A DNA stretch of 64,000 nucleotides, taken from the NCBI GenBank assembly GCA_024635475.1, contig JAGXIW010000003.1, forward strand, positions 496,001 through 560,000, written 5' to 3'. The position numbers and the translations under genes were made by a program. The notes beneath the pieces are model-generated. The model worked only from the letters and a program-made list of their open reading frames with translations. It had not been told where the DNA came from and made no database searches. Source of the DNA: a bacterium (GTDB lineage Bacteria; Patescibacteriota; Gracilibacteria; BD1-5; UBA6164). This document shows, one piece after another, positions 21,834 through 28,949 of this stretch. How positions within the stretch are numbered: the first letter of the stretch is position 1; each line of letters starts with the position of its first letter.

Positions 21834-22610
21834 TTATTTTTTATCATAAATGTTTTCAAAATATTTTTTTACTCAACTTGTTCAATCTTGGTTTATAATC
21901 CTGATTAATTCACTTCAAATAATTGCAAAATTTGCAATTTTACAAACCTCATTTATATCTTCTGATGTTTTTACTCAAAAACCTACTCATATTTCTATAT
22001 CTTTTAATTTTTTAAGTTTATGTATGTAATCTTCAAAATCTTTTCAAAAATTTATTTTATTTCAAGTTGTCATATTTTGACTAACAGCATAAACAAATCA
22101 ACTTGATAGTGAAAATATCTTTTTTAATCTAGATTTTTTACAAGTAGGAGAAATAACTTGAATAAGGTTTATATTATATTTTTTACATAATTTTATAAGT
22201 TCTTTTCACTCTTTTTCATCAAAAGGTATATCAGGAATTATAAGTCCAAATATTCAGATTTTCTTGGCTTTTTCAACAAATTTTTCAACTCAGTAGTTAT
22301 AAACTATATTGTAGTAAGTCATTATAAGGATTTTACAGTCGTCCTTACTTTGTCCCCCTTCGATAAGGGGGGTAGGGGGGATTTGTACTATAGACCTCTC
22401 CAAAAAATCAAAACAAGTACTCGGAGTAATTCAGTTTTCCAAAGCTACTTCATTTGCATTTGAGATTATTGGACCGTCAGCAATAGGATCAGAAAAAGGA
22501 ATTTGTATTTCTATATATTTTGAATACTTAGATAGTATTTCCAAAAGTTTTTGGCTTTCTTTTATACTAGGATAGCCACAAACTAGATGGGTCATTATTG
22601 GCTTTTGCAT
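21834..22610 (-). CDS. trpA: Tryptophan synthase alpha chain
   Basis: Cleaves indole-3-glycerol phosphate to indole, which is channelled to TrpB. The 258-residue barrel shows THLVCGYPS, EIQIPFSDPIADGPII (with the catalytic acid in the PFSDPxADGP motif), LIIPDIPFDE and the phosphate-binding VGFGVKTSEDI. Residues about 76-87 (around QIPPTPLIEGGQ) come from a C-rich/G-rich palindromic element inserted in frame. The family's loop before LIMTYYN is normally short there. It is last of the trp genes; an opposite-strand gene separates it from trpB. Confidence 0.95.
22351..22385. repeat. Palindromic element inside trpA (in frame)
   Basis: CCCCCTTCGATAAGGGG followed by GGTAGGGGGG: a GC-rich imperfect palindrome, far richer in GC than the flanks. 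Read in the trpA frame it adds about 12 residues without a stop. Confidence 0.75.
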
Positions 22611-22695: not shown

Positions 22696-23154
22696 ATGGT
22701 AATAAAAAAATATGATGTTTCAAAACTCAGTTGAGTTCCTGAAAAAACTGTGGATGTCATGGGGGGTGATTTAACAAATGAAGCAGTTATTGAGATATTA
22801 AGTCTTTCAGTAGAAGAAATAGACTGAATGCCAGATGAAAAACATAATAATCTTATAGAATTAATAAAACAAAAACCAAGATTATGGAAACAATTAGTAT
22901 CAAAAAAATCACCTGATTTTGGATCTCCAGAGGAAAATAATTTTATAGAATTAATAAAACAAAACCCAGAATCATGGAAACAATTATTTATAGCTGTAGT
23001 TCCTGCTACTCAAGAAGAAGTTCTTGAAGCTACTTATAATTGAAGATATTGACCTTGACTTCCAGCAGCAGAACTTCCAAAAGATGATGCCCCAGTGGAA
23101 TATGGAGATTTAATACCAGACTTTTGGGCAAGAGTAGCGAAATTAAAAATATAA
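22696..23154 (+). CDS. Hypothetical protein with internal duplication, antisense within the trp cluster
   Basis: A 152-residue acidic soluble protein of unknown function. It contains two copies of a segment, NNLIELIKQKPRLWKQL and NNFIELIKQNPESWKQL, 37 residues apart. The C-terminal third is rich in Pro and Gly, with TGA-coded glycines. It runs opposite to trpB and trpA and lies exactly between them, so it probably has its own promoter. I see no catalytic motif or signal peptide. Confidence 0.75.
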
Positions 23155-23189: not shown

Positions 23190-24527
23190 CTATTTTTTCT
23201 TTTCTATATACTCCCTCAAAAATCCCATAAATCAACTATCAAATTTAGGAGCCGTGATAAATAAATCCTTATCTCATCTACCAGACAGATTGCATACGAC
23301 AATCTGTTCTTTTTTTAGTTTTGGAGCAAGTTTTATAACTTCAGCAACGGCGTGAGCTGATTCAAGTGCTGGGAGAATTCACTCAGTTTGCATAAGTACT
23401 TTTATAGCATTTAGTGATTCATCATCTGTTGCATAAGTCATTTGCACTCTTTTTATATTTTCTAGATATGCAATTTGTGGACTAACTCCTGAGTAATCAA
23501 GTCAAGCAGAAATCGAGTATGTATCAAGTACTTGTCAATTATCATCTTGTATAAAGTATGATTTGTATCACTCTACGAATCATATTTTTTTGTTTGCAAA
23601 TCTGGAAGCATGTTGACCTGATTCTATTCATTTTCATCAAGCTTCAACTCAGATAAGTTTTACATTTTTATCATCTAAAAAATCATAGAAAAATCCGAGA
23701 GCATTGCTTCATCAACCTACACAAGCTACCATATAATCAGGTAGAAACCCCTTTGTCATTCTGAGTTTTTGCGAAGAATCCCTTAAACCTAGTTCTTTGC
23801 CATTTTCATGTAAAAGGGATCCTTCATTGCATTCAGGATGACAGGAATTAGAATATTCTTTCAGCTGTTTCCTAACCTCTTCTCATATAATTTTTTGAAA
23901 AAATACATTCATAGAAGGGTAAGGATTTGGTCAGCAAGCTGTTCAAAGTAAGTAATAAGTATCTTCAGAATTATTTAGTAAATCTTTCAATGCTGTGTTT
24001 ACTGCATCTCTGAGTGTTTGATTTCACTCATAAACAGGTATTACTTTCGCTCATGCAAGTTCCATATATATCACATTTGGTCTTTGTCTATCATAATCTT
24101 TTTTTCACATATAGATTATACACTCTAGTCCGAGTTTTGCACATATTGCAGCAGTTGCAAGTCCGTGTTGTCCAGCTCAAGTCTCAGCAATTATTCTTGT
24201 TTTTCACAAGTATTTTGCAACAAGAGCTTGTCATACAGAGTGATTTATCTTATGAGCTCAAGTGTGATTTACTCATTCATTTTTTAAGTAAATTTGAGCT
24301 CAACCAAGTTTTTTTGTTAGATTTTCAGCAAATATAAGAGGGGATGGTCTACCAATATAGTTTTTATGTAAGTCTTTTAGATCTCGTATAAAGTTTTTGT
24401 CTTTTTTCAATTTGAAGAATGCATCTTTTACTTCATCCATAATTGGGATGAGAAGTTCGGGGATATATCTTCACCCGAATTCTCAGAAGTGTCAGTTTTT
24501 ATTTATTATTATGTTTTTTAGGGTCAT
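23190..24527 (-). CDS. trpB: Tryptophan synthase beta chain with a repeat-derived insertion
   Basis: PLP enzyme joining indole and serine to tryptophan. The 445-residue protein shows [23 protein letters not shown], the PLP-lysine motif [25 protein letters not shown], the phosphate-binding CVGGGSNALG, and HAVAEVI near the end. Residues about 226-258 ([17 protein letters not shown], then [12 protein letters not shown]) are the translation of a palindromic repeat inserted in frame, which explains a length some 45 residues above typical. Core active-site motifs are intact, so activity is likely if the extra loop is tolerated. Confidence 0.95.
23754..23852. repeat. Palindromic repeat, TGTCATCCTGAG family, inside trpB
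   Basis: Starts TGTCATTCTGAG with AAGAATCCCTTAAA on one arm and AAGGGATCCTTC on the other, ending CAGGATGACA. Same family as 5635-5725 and 52437-52530. At 99 bases it keeps the trpB frame open. Confidence 0.88.
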
Positions 24528-24677: not shown

Positions 24678-26468
24678 TTATCAAATCAATTTTTCAATAT
24701 TTTCTTTTAGGATAATAAGTCAATTTTGTGTTAGAATACTTTCTGGGTGGAATTGGAAAGAGAAAAAGTTTTTCTGTCTTAGAGCATAAATTTCATTTGT
24801 TTTTGGATTGTTTGAGAACTTGAAATCACTAGAATCCTTTTCTTTAAATCAAGCAAAAGTATTATAAAAAGCCACTTTTTGCATTTCTCAAAATAAATTT
24901 ATTTCTATTTGTTCTCATTGGGTTGGGATTTCTTTTTTTTGTACTTTGATTTTTAGATATCTACATATAAGTTGATGTCAAAGACATATTCAAAAAAACT
25001 TTTTGTTGTTTTTGTATAGGTAATCAATTATATCTAGATTTTTTTGCATTTTTTCAGTATTTTCTAGTGGATTTCATGGACCTGGTCATATTAAAGAAAT
25101 ATCAAAATTATATAATTCACTAATTTTAACTTCATTGAATCTTTTCAGTGTAATTTTATATCAAAGTATTTTCAATATATGAGCTATCATATTTGTGAAA
25201 TCATCTTCATTGTTTATAATTAGAATTTGTTCTTTTTTTATTTCTAGATTTTCAAAATCTTGTTTAAAAAACCATGTTTTGCTTAAATTTTGGTTTCTTA
25301 TTTGTATAAGTTCTTGAACTTCATCATCCAAATAATATTTTTCCAAAAAATTTGTTTTTGTATTTGTAATTCAAAGTAAAGCATTTAAAACTCACTTTGA
25401 CTTTATTTTAATTTCTTCATATTCACTTTCTGGAACAGAATCTTTTGTTAAACTTGCTCAAACACAAAATTCTAATCATCAATCAATATTGATATCCAAA
25501 GTCCTTATCATAATACTACTATCTAGTGAGTCTTTTTTTAAATGAGAAACGGCTCATGCATAATATTTTCTATCAAAATTCTCATATTTTTTTACAATTT
25601 TAAAAGCATTTTCAATTGGACTTCCTACCACTGTACAAGCCCATATTGATTCTTTGAAAATCTCTAATTTTTTCATTTTACTTTCTCAACTGAGTAGATA
25701 TTCAGTGTGAATTAGATTAGACATTTCTTTTAAGATTGGTCATACAATTATTCATCAGCCTGTACAGATTTTACTCATCATTTTTAGTTCTTCATCAACA
25801 CACATAAAAAGCTCGTTTATTTCTTTTTGGTCTTTTAAAAATAATAAAAAATCTTTTTTGAAATCTGTATAATTATCGTATTTTGTTTTTCTAAAAGTTC
25901 CAGAGATGGGGTTCATCCTTACTATATTATTTTCTACACTTACATTTCTTTCTGGGCTTGCTCAAATGAAAAACTTATTTCAATCAAAAAATAAAAATTG
26001 TAGATAACTACCACACTCAGATAAAATGATTCTTTTGTAGATTGTAAGAGCTTTCTCTACTTCAAAATTAATTATTTTTCAAGTAATTTTTTGGGCAATA
26101 TTGAAGTTTGATCATTCTCAATTTCAGATTTCTTTGTTTACTATATTATTTACGATTTCAGTATGTTCTTTTTTTGTGAAATTTTCTATCAATTCTCAAT
26201 CTAATTTAATTTCTTTCTCTTTAAAAGTTTTTATAAACTCATCTATTGAGTATATTTTTTCTTCATTAACTATAATTGATATTATTTTTTCATTATTTTC
26301 TTTTACTTCGAATCATCTTTCCTTGGCTTGTGTGAATGGAGTTATAAAAATTTGTTCTACACTTTCATCAATTTCTGATAGTAGATTATATTTTTGCACT
26401 TTTCCAGAGAAATATCTTATGAAGTCTTCTCACTTTTTTTTGTATAGTGCGAATGGTTTATTATACAT
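24678..26468 (-). CDS. Anthranilate synthase, TrpE-TrpG fusion (PhzE-like)
   Basis: Converts chorismate and glutamine to anthranilate, the first step of tryptophan synthesis. The 596-residue protein fuses a chorismate-binding domain (about 1-390: SPERNVSVE, MNPISGTFRK, IHTEYLLSGES, YYAGAVSHL, SSIMIRTLDI) to a glutamine amidotransferase (about 410-596: IGPGPGNPLEN, catalytic Cys in FGICLGHQL, QFHPES). The motifs NPISGT, HTEYL and TPFTQAKERGFEV are closer to PhzE-type enzymes than to classic TrpE. PhzE makes aminodeoxyisochorismate, so product identity rests on the trp operon context. Confidence 0.88.
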
Positions 26469-26486: not shown

Positions 26487-27098
26487 TTAAAAGTTTTCCA
26501 TTATTTTTACTATTCTTTTAGTTTTTCTGTTGCAGATGTTTTTGCCGTTGTCTACTCAGGAAGCTGTGTCTACTCAGGAAGCTTTTGGAACTTTTGTAAG
26601 GACTTCTGCGAGATTGAATTCATTTATTCATCAGGCAATTAAAAATGGTTTAGAGAGTTTTAAATTATTTAGAATTTCATAATCATATCATTTTCAACTT
26701 CAAGGAATACTTCAATCTATTATATATAAATCAATATTTTCATCTTCTTTTAGTGATTTTATATCTGGATATGATATGGAATGTAATATATGAAATCAGT
26801 GTTTTTTTAGGTAAGCAAAATCACAATTTCAATATATTTGCAGGGAATCCAATTCAGTATGTTTTGCAGTTTTGATTATCTCATCAAGATATGTTTTATC
26901 TAGGTTTTGCCAGACTTTGTTTTCATATTTTCAAAAAAGTCATACTCTTTTTACATTTTCTGGAGTAATAATTTCTTTTGCTAATTCTTTAGTGATTTTT
27001 CTTTTTGAAATTTCAATAAAATTAAATCATAGAAAATCGATTCAATCATAGTTTTTTAATCTATTTCTAATTCAGCAGAGTTTTAGTAATTTTTTCAT
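26487..27098 (-). CDS. trpF: Phosphoribosylanthranilate isomerase
   Basis: Third step of the tryptophan branch (Amadori rearrangement). The 203-residue barrel starts LKLCGIRN with the catalytic Cys; its Gly is TGA. It continues with DFLGFNFIEISKR, VGLFGK, the catalytic Asp region LYIIDGSIPGSGKGYDYEI and the phosphate-binding FLIAGGINEFN and GVDTASGVDNGK. An 18-base direct duplication encodes the A-S-G-V-D repeat in the last motif, but the product still fits the family. It lies 18 bases upstream of trpEG. Confidence 0.93.
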
Positions 27099-27152: not shown

Positions 27153-28007
27153 CTATTTTGAGAGAAAATCTAATACTACTTTTAAATTTATATCGACTAG
27201 GTCACTATAGGCTCATACTTTTTCTCAGGCGATTATTTGTTTTGCAAGTTCAATTTTTTTGTTTATATCTTTTTCTAAAATTTCTTCTAGGCTCACTTTT
27301 TTATATCAGAAATCCTCTGGAGTTATTTCATAATTTTTTATTTTTCAATTTTTTAGTTCATAAATTTTTGTTTTTCAAGTTAATGTAATTTCATCAAGTC
27401 AATCTTCTCACCTTATAACAAGTACATTTTTTCTTCATAAAATTTTGCAAGTTTCTATCATAAGTTCCATTTTATCTTCGAAGCTACAACCAATTATTTG
27501 ATAATCAGAATTAGCAGGAGATAGTAATGGTCAAAGTATGTTAAATATTGTTGGTTTGGCATAATTTTTTCTAGCCTCAGCAAATTCTTTCATAAAAGGA
27601 AAAAAGTTTTTTGCATATAGGAAAGCTATATTATTATTTTTATATTCATCAAGTGTTTCTTCTTTTGAATTTGGAATTTTGTATCAAAGTTTTTCAATTA
27701 GATCAAAACTTCCAAATCTACCACTACTTGCATTATTTCAATGTTTTGCAATTTTAACTCATTTTTTTGCAAGTTTTAGACAAGCTAAAGTTGAAGTATT
27801 GATTCTATCAAGTCAGCTTCAACCAGTTCAACAGATGTCTGTAGAATCAAATAAATCTATATTTATTGCTTGTTTTGATTTAAGATAAGTTACTATTTCA
27901 GCAAGTTCTTCAGGAGTTACTTTTTTTTCTGCTATATCTTGAAGCATTTTAAGTTTATCGGATTCAGAGATGTTATTTTCTAGGACTTTTTTTATAAATT
28001 TTTTCAT
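27153..28007 (-). CDS. trpD: Anthranilate phosphoribosyltransferase
   Basis: Second step: joins anthranilate to PRPP. The 284-residue protein shows the PRPP/Mg loop DICGTGGSGLDRINTST, KHGNNASSGRFGSFD, the anthranilate pocket region FPFMKEFAEARK, TIFNILGPLLSPAN, and the acidic pair in VIRGEDGLDEITLTG. It is shorter than the usual 330-345 residues, mostly through trimmed C-terminal parts. It lies 19 bases after trpC. Confidence 0.94.
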
Positions 28008-28026: not shown

Positions 28027-28740
28027 TTAAATGTTTTTCATAAAATATGTTCAGATAAGAACTCAATTAAATTTGTTTTTATATTTTTTTATATCTTGTA
28101 AATTAGTAATTCAAGAAAATGCAAATAGTAGTTTGTTGGCTAGTTTATCTTTATATTTTTCTTGTAAATTAATATGAGAATTGTTATCAATTTGCATATT
28201 TCATAGATTTCTGGAATTAATTGCGATTCAAAAATCAAGGGAATCACTTAATTTTATTATTTCTTTTAGATCTTTTTCGTTATCGATTTCTACAATTGGA
28301 AATATGTTTTTTTCTTGGGTATAATTTATAAGATTTATCAAATCTTTATTTTTTAGAATTCTTTTTATTAAAAGTAATGCATCATATCAAAAATATGAAG
28401 CTCAATCAATTTGAGTCTTATCAATTACAAATTCTTTGAAAAAAATAGGTTTTTTATACCTTTCTTTAAATATTTTTCATCTATTTATATCTCAGTCAAA
28501 GTATTTTTTATCTACTAGATTTGATACTGCTTTGATTTTAGGATTATTTCAATAAAAATCAAGTATAGTATCGATATTTTTTTCTTGTGCAAGATTAGAA
28601 ATACTTGGAGATTTAATCTTTATTTCTCAAATAATATTTGCATCTTTTTTCACAAAGACTTTTTTGAATAAATCTTTGTTTGACTTAATTGATACTAGTT
28701 CTTTTTTCTTGTTTTTTACTATCTCATCTAAGATTGTCAT
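28027..28740 (-). CDS. trpC: Indole-3-glycerol phosphate synthase
   Basis: Fourth step: ring closure to indole-3-glycerol phosphate. The 237-residue barrel starts ILDEIVKNKKKEL. It then shows GEIKIKSPSISN (the family's catalytic Lys in the K-x-x-S-P-S motif), VSNLVDKKYFDG, KPIFFKEFVIDKTQI, DALLLIKRIL, FPIVEIDNEKDL (with the conserved Glu), INSRNL and AFSGITN. It is first in the trp operon, directly behind the leader attenuator. Confidence 0.94.
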
Positions 28741-28760: not shown

Positions 28761-28856
28761 AAAAAAAGCTGTTAATTTGAATAACAGCTTTTAATTTTAA
28801 ATTTTTTGTAATTTTTAAACACAAAAAGTATAACTAAAACTGTTATTTTTAGTTAT
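28761..28856 (-). promoter_or_regulatory. trp transcription attenuator (terminator/antiterminator)
   Basis: On the minus strand: hairpin 1:2 is ATAACTAAAA / TTTTAGTTAT (28856-28830, perfect 10 bp). AATAACAG in its loop is complementary to CTGTTATT at the terminator's 5' arm (alternative 2:3 antiterminator). The terminator AAAGCTGTTA / TAACAGCTTT (28791-28765) is followed by a T-run, 24 bases before the trpC start. Tandem Trp codons of the leader peptide sit just before arm 1. This is the layout of ribosome-mediated attenuation. Confidence 0.85.
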
Positions 28857-28892
28857 TAGCCACCAAGCAGTTGTAAAATACAAGTTTTGCAT
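28815..28892 (-). CDS. trpL: trp leader peptide
   Basis: A 25-codon ORF starting MQNLYFTTAWWLITKNN and ending TAA at 28815-28817. Residues 10 and 11 are tandem tryptophans (TGG TGG, 28860-28865), an amino acid rare in this genome. The codons after WW form the first strand of the attenuator hairpin, so a ribosome stalled for want of Trp-tRNA would block it and favour the antiterminator, letting transcription reach trpCDF-EG-BA. The peptide itself probably has no further function. Confidence 0.82.
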   Translation of the reverse strand: MQNLYFTTAWWLITKNNSFSYTFCV

Positions 28893-28921
28893 AAATTTAT
28901 CGTAAAAATATATCTAAGTAA

Positions 28922-28949
28922 AATATAAGTTTTTTTCTTGTTTTGTCAA
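28922..28949 (-). promoter_or_regulatory. Promoter of the trp operon
   Basis: On the minus strand TTGACA (28949-28944), a 16-base spacer and TATATT (28927-28922), 30 bases before the leader peptide start. A consensus -35 box and a good -10. Confidence 0.7.

Follow-up and report, generated by a model that had tools for sequence, protein, structure and literature searches.

The trp leader of Escherichia coli carries its Trp codons at positions 10 and 11 (PMC1183508). Its transcript contains four segments with three alternative pairings, the terminator lies before the structural genes, and a ribosome that stalls at the Trp codons causes antitermination. Classical attenuators of this type are known in proteobacteria and Actinobacteria; those of Corynebacterium and Streptomyces combine a leader with two or three UGG codons, a U-tract terminator and a conserved triple complementarity built from GC-rich segments around a gGCC-rGCy-GGCC core (PMC1262725). 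In other bacteria, trp operons are also known to be controlled by TRAP, a trans-acting RNA binder, or by the T-box, which binds tRNA.

Our analysis concerns a 64-kb stretch of DNA (the window) from a gracilibacterial genome (G000), in which the same arrangement is found upstream of trpC: adjacent Trp codons 10 and 11, four segments with three alternative pairings, and a terminator ahead of the structural genes. The element differs from E. coli trpL in that the leader has 25 residues (14 in E. coli), the helices are AU-rich, the host uses genetic code 25, the leader has no Shine-Dalgarno sequence, trpC is the first gene, and hairpin 1:2 is weak, so that little super-attenuation is expected. In place of the GC-rich actinobacterial core, the window has an AU-rich CUGUUAUU/AAUAACAG core (compare PMC1262725). 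The gammaproteobacterial Rfam family Trp_leader does not match the window leader at its gathering score, nor at E<=5 over a 451-nt stretch. The initial annotation proposed attenuation logic of the E. coli type, a reading that gains support from the mutually exclusive pairings 1:2, 2:3 and 3:4, from folding, and from conservation in a second species. We regard it as highly probable that the element is a classical ribosome-mediated transcription attenuator by which trpCDF(EG)BA follows the availability of charged tRNA-Trp.

Organization of the leader and the trp operon

The coordinates of all features are compiled in Table 1. The promoter, the 25-codon ORF with its TGG TGG codons and the 10-bp hairpin proposed initially all lie where they had been placed on the minus strand. 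The stretch recognized as complementary to the 5' arm of the terminator (AATAACAG, 28847-28840) proves to be part of a longer antiterminator complementarity of 12 bp, including one G-U pair, between AATAACAGTTTT (28847-28836) and AAAGCTGTTATT (28791-28780). The terminator pairing 3:4 comprises 11 bp, and the two are mutually exclusive, as both use segment 3. The terminator and its T-run were likewise found at the proposed distance from trpC, whose ATG at 28740 follows the end of the hairpin by 24 nt and the T-run by 20. Transcription is predicted to start near 28915.

Table 1. Coordinates of the leader, the trp operon and compared loci (positions refer to the window unless a locus is named).
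Feature	Position	Strand	Details and basis
Sigma-70-type promoter, TTGACA-16-TATATT	28922..28949	-	TTGACA 28949-28944, spacer 16 nt, TATATT 28927-28922; from sequence; hexamers and spacing kept in G003
Leader peptide ORF, MQNLYFTTAWWLITKNNSFSYTFCV	28815..28892	-	25 sense codons + TAA; from sequence; G003 likewise has WW at 10 and 11
Trp control codons TGG TGG	28860..28865	-	Adjacent, codons 10 and 11; from sequence
Segment 1, 5' arm of hairpin 1:2, AUAACUAAAA	28847..28856	-	Sequence and folding
Hairpin 1:2, 10 bp		-	Arms 28856-28847 and 28839-28830
Segment 2	28830..28847	-	Partner of segment 3: AAUAACAGUUUU (28847-28836); partner of segment 1: UUUUAGUUAU (28839-28830)
Small AU hairpin in the 2:3 loop of the antiterminator fold	28803..28827	-	Folding and sequence
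Segment 3, AAAGCUGUUAUU	28780..28791	-	Common to antiterminator and terminator; sequence and folding
Intrinsic terminator, AAAAGCUGUUA / UAACAGCUUUU	28761..28792	-	Arms 28792-28782 / 28774-28764; U-run 28767-28761; -11.6 kcal/mol
trpC, indole-3-glycerol phosphate synthase	28027..28740	-	First structural gene; Pfam IGPS 1.3e-40
trpD, anthranilate phosphoribosyltransferase	27153..28007	-	TIGR01245 256.7 bits, above cut-off
trpF, phosphoribosylanthranilate isomerase	26487..27098	-	Pfam PRAI 1.2e-19
trpEG fusion, anthranilate synthase	24678..26468	-	Pfam Chorismate_bind + GATase
trpB	23190..24527	-	TIGR00263 557.5 bits, above cut-off
trpA	21834..22610	-	TIGR00262 187.4 bits, above cut-off
G012 leader MIKNYSNISWGKKGWWFI	L008 12059-12115	+	Before second trpEG gene; promoter upstream; terminator present
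G030 tandem WW leaders MTHKNNHISWWIVDISHRKISIFSA and MFQLNYKIWWHTPPWCNSQNYYF	L141 7953-7650	-	Terminator each; directly before trpBA
TrpR-family gene; palindrome ACTTTAATTAGATAAAGT twice at the promoter	L118 7550-7923		G000 contig C7

Profile matches from Pfam and TIGRFAM identify a complete operon, trpC-D-F-EG-B-A, after the leader, and a chorismate synthase gene is located elsewhere in the genome. Between trpB and trpA, the operon is broken by a 152-aa ORF on the opposite strand (22696-23154, plus), which has no match in Pfam or NCBIfam.

The genome has a size of 1.35 Mb and uses TGA as a sense codon. When TGA is translated as glycine (code 25), the products are ordinary enzymes, whose genes contain as many as 36 TGA codons each, and conserved glycine motifs of the GSGPAG type fall at TGA codons, where a code-4 translation would display W. 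The lineage is thus UGA-recoded, as first annotated. The accompanying remark that TGA does not end the leader is correct as well (TAA in the window, TAG in G003), if a minor point; the window leader ORF is free of TGA codons. Both the code and the relatives suggest a placement in Gracilibacteria/Absconditabacteria.

Like 51 of the 52 longer ORFs in the window, the trp leader ORF lacks a Shine-Dalgarno sequence. Shine-Dalgarno-like motifs thus precede one of 52 long ORFs (about 4% at random positions), and translation in this genome seems to start mostly without them.

Ribosome position and RNA folding

According to the proposed mechanism, RNA polymerase would start near 28915 and a ribosome would trail it along the leader ORF of 25 codons. 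Under a shortage of charged tRNA-Trp, this ribosome should stall at codons 10-11 and cover segment 1, leaving segment 2 free to pair with the emerging segment 3; with segment 3 held in 2:3, no terminator would form and the operon would be transcribed. When Trp is plentiful, the ribosome would advance onto segment 2, so that 3:4 could form and transcription would stop at the U-run.

We folded the RNA 3' of the ribosome with the ribosome set at every leader codon, for G000 and for its congener G003; the resulting probabilities are equilibrium values that leave transcription kinetics aside. In G000, hairpin 1:2 has a probability of 0.82 with codon 9 (A) in the A site and of 0.19 with W10; the corresponding values for G003 are 0.97 and 0.73. 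When the A site reaches W11, the probability of 1:2 is zero in either species. For a ribosome with one of the two Trp codons in its A site, 2:3 attains a mean probability of 0.80 (G000) and 0.90 (G003) after segment 3 has emerged. From codon 15 onward, segment 2 lies under the ribosome and the probability of 2:3 is 0.00. The two alternative states suggested at the outset are therefore recovered, with a stall on W10 or W11 giving 2:3 and an advanced ribosome giving the terminator. The computed folds thus fit the placement of the control codons: segment 2 is left open by a ribosome stalled there and hidden by one that has moved on.

The full-length transcript favors 1:2 together with 3:4. Because the finished transcript prefers the terminator, the antiterminator must win kinetically. 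Helix energies amount to -5.4 (G000) and -5.9 kcal/mol (G003) for 1:2, compared to -14.6 and -14.0 kcal/mol for 2:3; all leader helices are AU-rich. In the absence of a ribosome and before segment 4 is made, 2:3 dominates (0.80 in G000, 0.58 in G003). Since 1:2 is weak relative to 2:3, strong super-attenuation is not expected when the leader goes untranslated, and the model predicts that termination relies on a moving ribosome more than it does in E. coli. The leader stop of the window genome lies well beyond segment 2, where a terminating ribosome would not cover this segment.

The 175-nt leader folds with a z-score of -2.16. A scanner looked for short ORFs that start with ATG, contain neighboring TGG codons, are followed within 160 nt by a terminator, and are accompanied by a complementarity of 8 bp or more to the terminator arm. 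In the 64-kb window, the full set occurs once, at the trpC leader. In 100 dinucleotide shuffles of the window, read on both strands, 82 short WW ORFs appeared, none with a terminator and none with the full set. A similar scan over the surroundings of the class's trp loci (1.76 Mb of strand sequence) returned matches upstream of trp operons and two elsewhere (L078, L116).

Conservation in the genus and the family

Among the four other species of the genus, trpC is present in one, G003. It is preceded there by TTGACA-16-TATATT, a 19-codon leader (MKTITFTSTWWTTTKNNSF) whose codons 10 and 11 encode Trp, and a terminator. Segments 1-3 are kept, and the antiterminator pair AATAACAGTTTT + AAAGCTGTTATT is unchanged. 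Segment 2 is identical to that of the window except for one inserted U; this extra T places the leader stop, TAG, inside segment 2. An AU-rich inner helix is found inside the 2:3 loop of G003 too, but in another register. The flanks and the gap to trpC have diverged, and about 250 nt absent from the window lie between terminator and trpC. The operon of G003 is located near the same neighbors as in the window, i.e. serS, an asparaginase gene and a YbaK-like gene (named by resemblance to the window's own), but the gene immediately upstream of the leader differs. The exact element is known from these two sequences (G000 and G003), whose nearly identical stems offer scant variation in paired columns.

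The initial annotation had looked to relatives for WW leaders upstream of trpC and regarded trp operons lacking both the ORF and the pairing as evidence to the contrary. Within the genus, G003 retains both. More distant members of the family, G011, G012 and G014, carry a trpR-like gene in this place instead, directly before trpC.

Within the family, G012 and G030 also have comparable Trp leaders, with terminators, upstream of trp genes (Table 1). In G012, a TrpR-like palindrome (TGTATTACTTAAATAATACA) is placed between promoter and leader, and the WW codons themselves are able to pair with the terminator arm; hence, a productive stall would be expected at the first, separate Trp codon. The leader of G012 contains an in-frame TGA as its first glycine codon, located after the initial Trp codon and ahead of WW. 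This leader is a more informative case than the choice of stop codon.

Alternative explanations

Trp-dependent control could instead be exerted by a repressor of the TrpR family, with the leader as a relic or for fine tuning only. We consider this unlikely, although trpR-like genes stand directly before trpC in the three relatives named above, the window genome has a TrpR-family gene on another contig (C7:15626), and TTTACTTAGATATA, beside the trp promoter, resembles an operator-like palindrome before trpR-trpC in G011. The window trp operon is without an adjacent trpR. Because the C7 paralogue is shared with G001 and G002, both devoid of trpC and trpB, and has 18-bp palindromes of its own, it is probably not dedicated to trp, though it may act jointly with the leader. 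Within three mismatches, these palindromes have no match at the trp promoter, and sites with fewer than three mismatches to ACTTTAATTAGATAAAGT occur in the G000 genome only as the two copies at the C7 gene. A 14-mer pattern joining the C7 sites and the trp promoter was built from those very sites, and a reversed control gave an equal count. Moreover, no TrpR was detected in G003, which does have the attenuator. The operator-like stretch at the trp promoter is thus a weak hint of a possible TrpR site.

It is even less probable that the hairpin is a plain terminator between the upstream NYN-domain gene and trpC, with an accidental WW ORF. Terminators between genes are frequent, and AT-rich DNA readily produces short ORFs; five short ones with WW occur in the window alone. 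However, with a promoter downstream of the NYN gene and upstream of the terminator, the latter becomes part of the trp transcript; G003 retains WW and segments 2 and 3 despite its different gene upstream, and none of the 100 shuffles combined a WW ORF with a terminator.

Control by TRAP or a T-box rather than by a translating ribosome, known as both are for trp operons, has a negligible probability, as neither accounts for the conserved WW ORF, TRAP (PF02081) has no match in the window genome (the Bacillus subtilis control was positive), and no T-box matches the window at gathering score or the 451-nt leader stretch at E<=5. No other Rfam family matches the leader at gathering score; with loose filters, its only match was an sRNA at chance level (E = 1.7).

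Trp leaders across the class

With ribosome-mediated attenuation as the preferred reading of the window leader, the distribution of comparable leaders in the class is of interest. Out of 44 loci with a located trpE, some of which end at contig ends, Trp-rich leaders with a terminator precede trpE in 16 genomes from ten other families (L053, L057, L059, L061, L062, L065, L079, L082, L085, L088, L099, L105, L108, L110, L111 and L112). In L088, the Trp codons are spaced (W-S-W-H-W) and not adjacent; the leader of L099 requires a TTG start, and the terminator of L057 is weaker. A TrpC search of genome contigs gave a single match, a distant Bacteroidetes locus, which was left out of the comparison. 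In a search of eleven class loci against Rfam, none matched a leader family.

The leaders of the class (e.g. L053, L061, L062, L105, L110, G012 and G030) resemble that of the window in their WW or WWW codons, their length of 13-25 residues and a terminator just before a trp gene. They differ in that most precede trpE, often directly after trpR, and that the standard code applies outside the window's family; they have no evident sequence homology to the window leader.

In nine loci (L050, L053, L057, L059, L061, L062, L079, L082 and L105), the leader start overlaps the trpR stop: the ORF begins on or just within the stop codon, often as ATGA. The leader of L050 has one Trp codon only. The overlap suggests that leader translation is coupled to that of trpR in these loci. 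In L094 (G236), a TrpR-like ORF ends 70 nt before trpE with the C-terminus ...AWWQPSTIWQMWS, followed by a terminator; the end of the repressor gene itself may serve as leader peptide.

Taken together, these loci suggest a broader reading, to which we assign an about even chance. Ribosome-mediated trp attenuation would be general, and so far undescribed, in the class, which we infer to be Gracilibacteria sensu lato. Many leaders would start on the trpR stop, with their translation coupled to the repressor's, and the family that reads UGA as glycine would have kept or re-made the device before various trp genes, namely trpC, a second trpEG and trpBA, with a tandem leader pair and a leader readable to WW only with UGA as glycine among them. 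A search for literature on attenuation or trp regulation in Gracilibacteria, Absconditabacteria, Peregrinibacteria and the candidate phyla radiation, confined to open-access sources and thus no proof of absence, returned nothing relevant.

Implications

The device upstream of trpC is of a familiar kind; of greater interest is the broader pattern across the class. A full trp operon, a chorismate synthase gene and Trp-sensing attenuation imply that the organism makes its own tryptophan and meters it by charged tRNA, in contrast to the usual picture of candidate-phyla bacteria as stripped-down dependants. The leaders of the class form a natural series for following how an attenuator originates, how it moves between genes, and how it replaces or joins TrpR; they also bear on the behavior of a sensor built on a leader peptide when the genetic code is altered.
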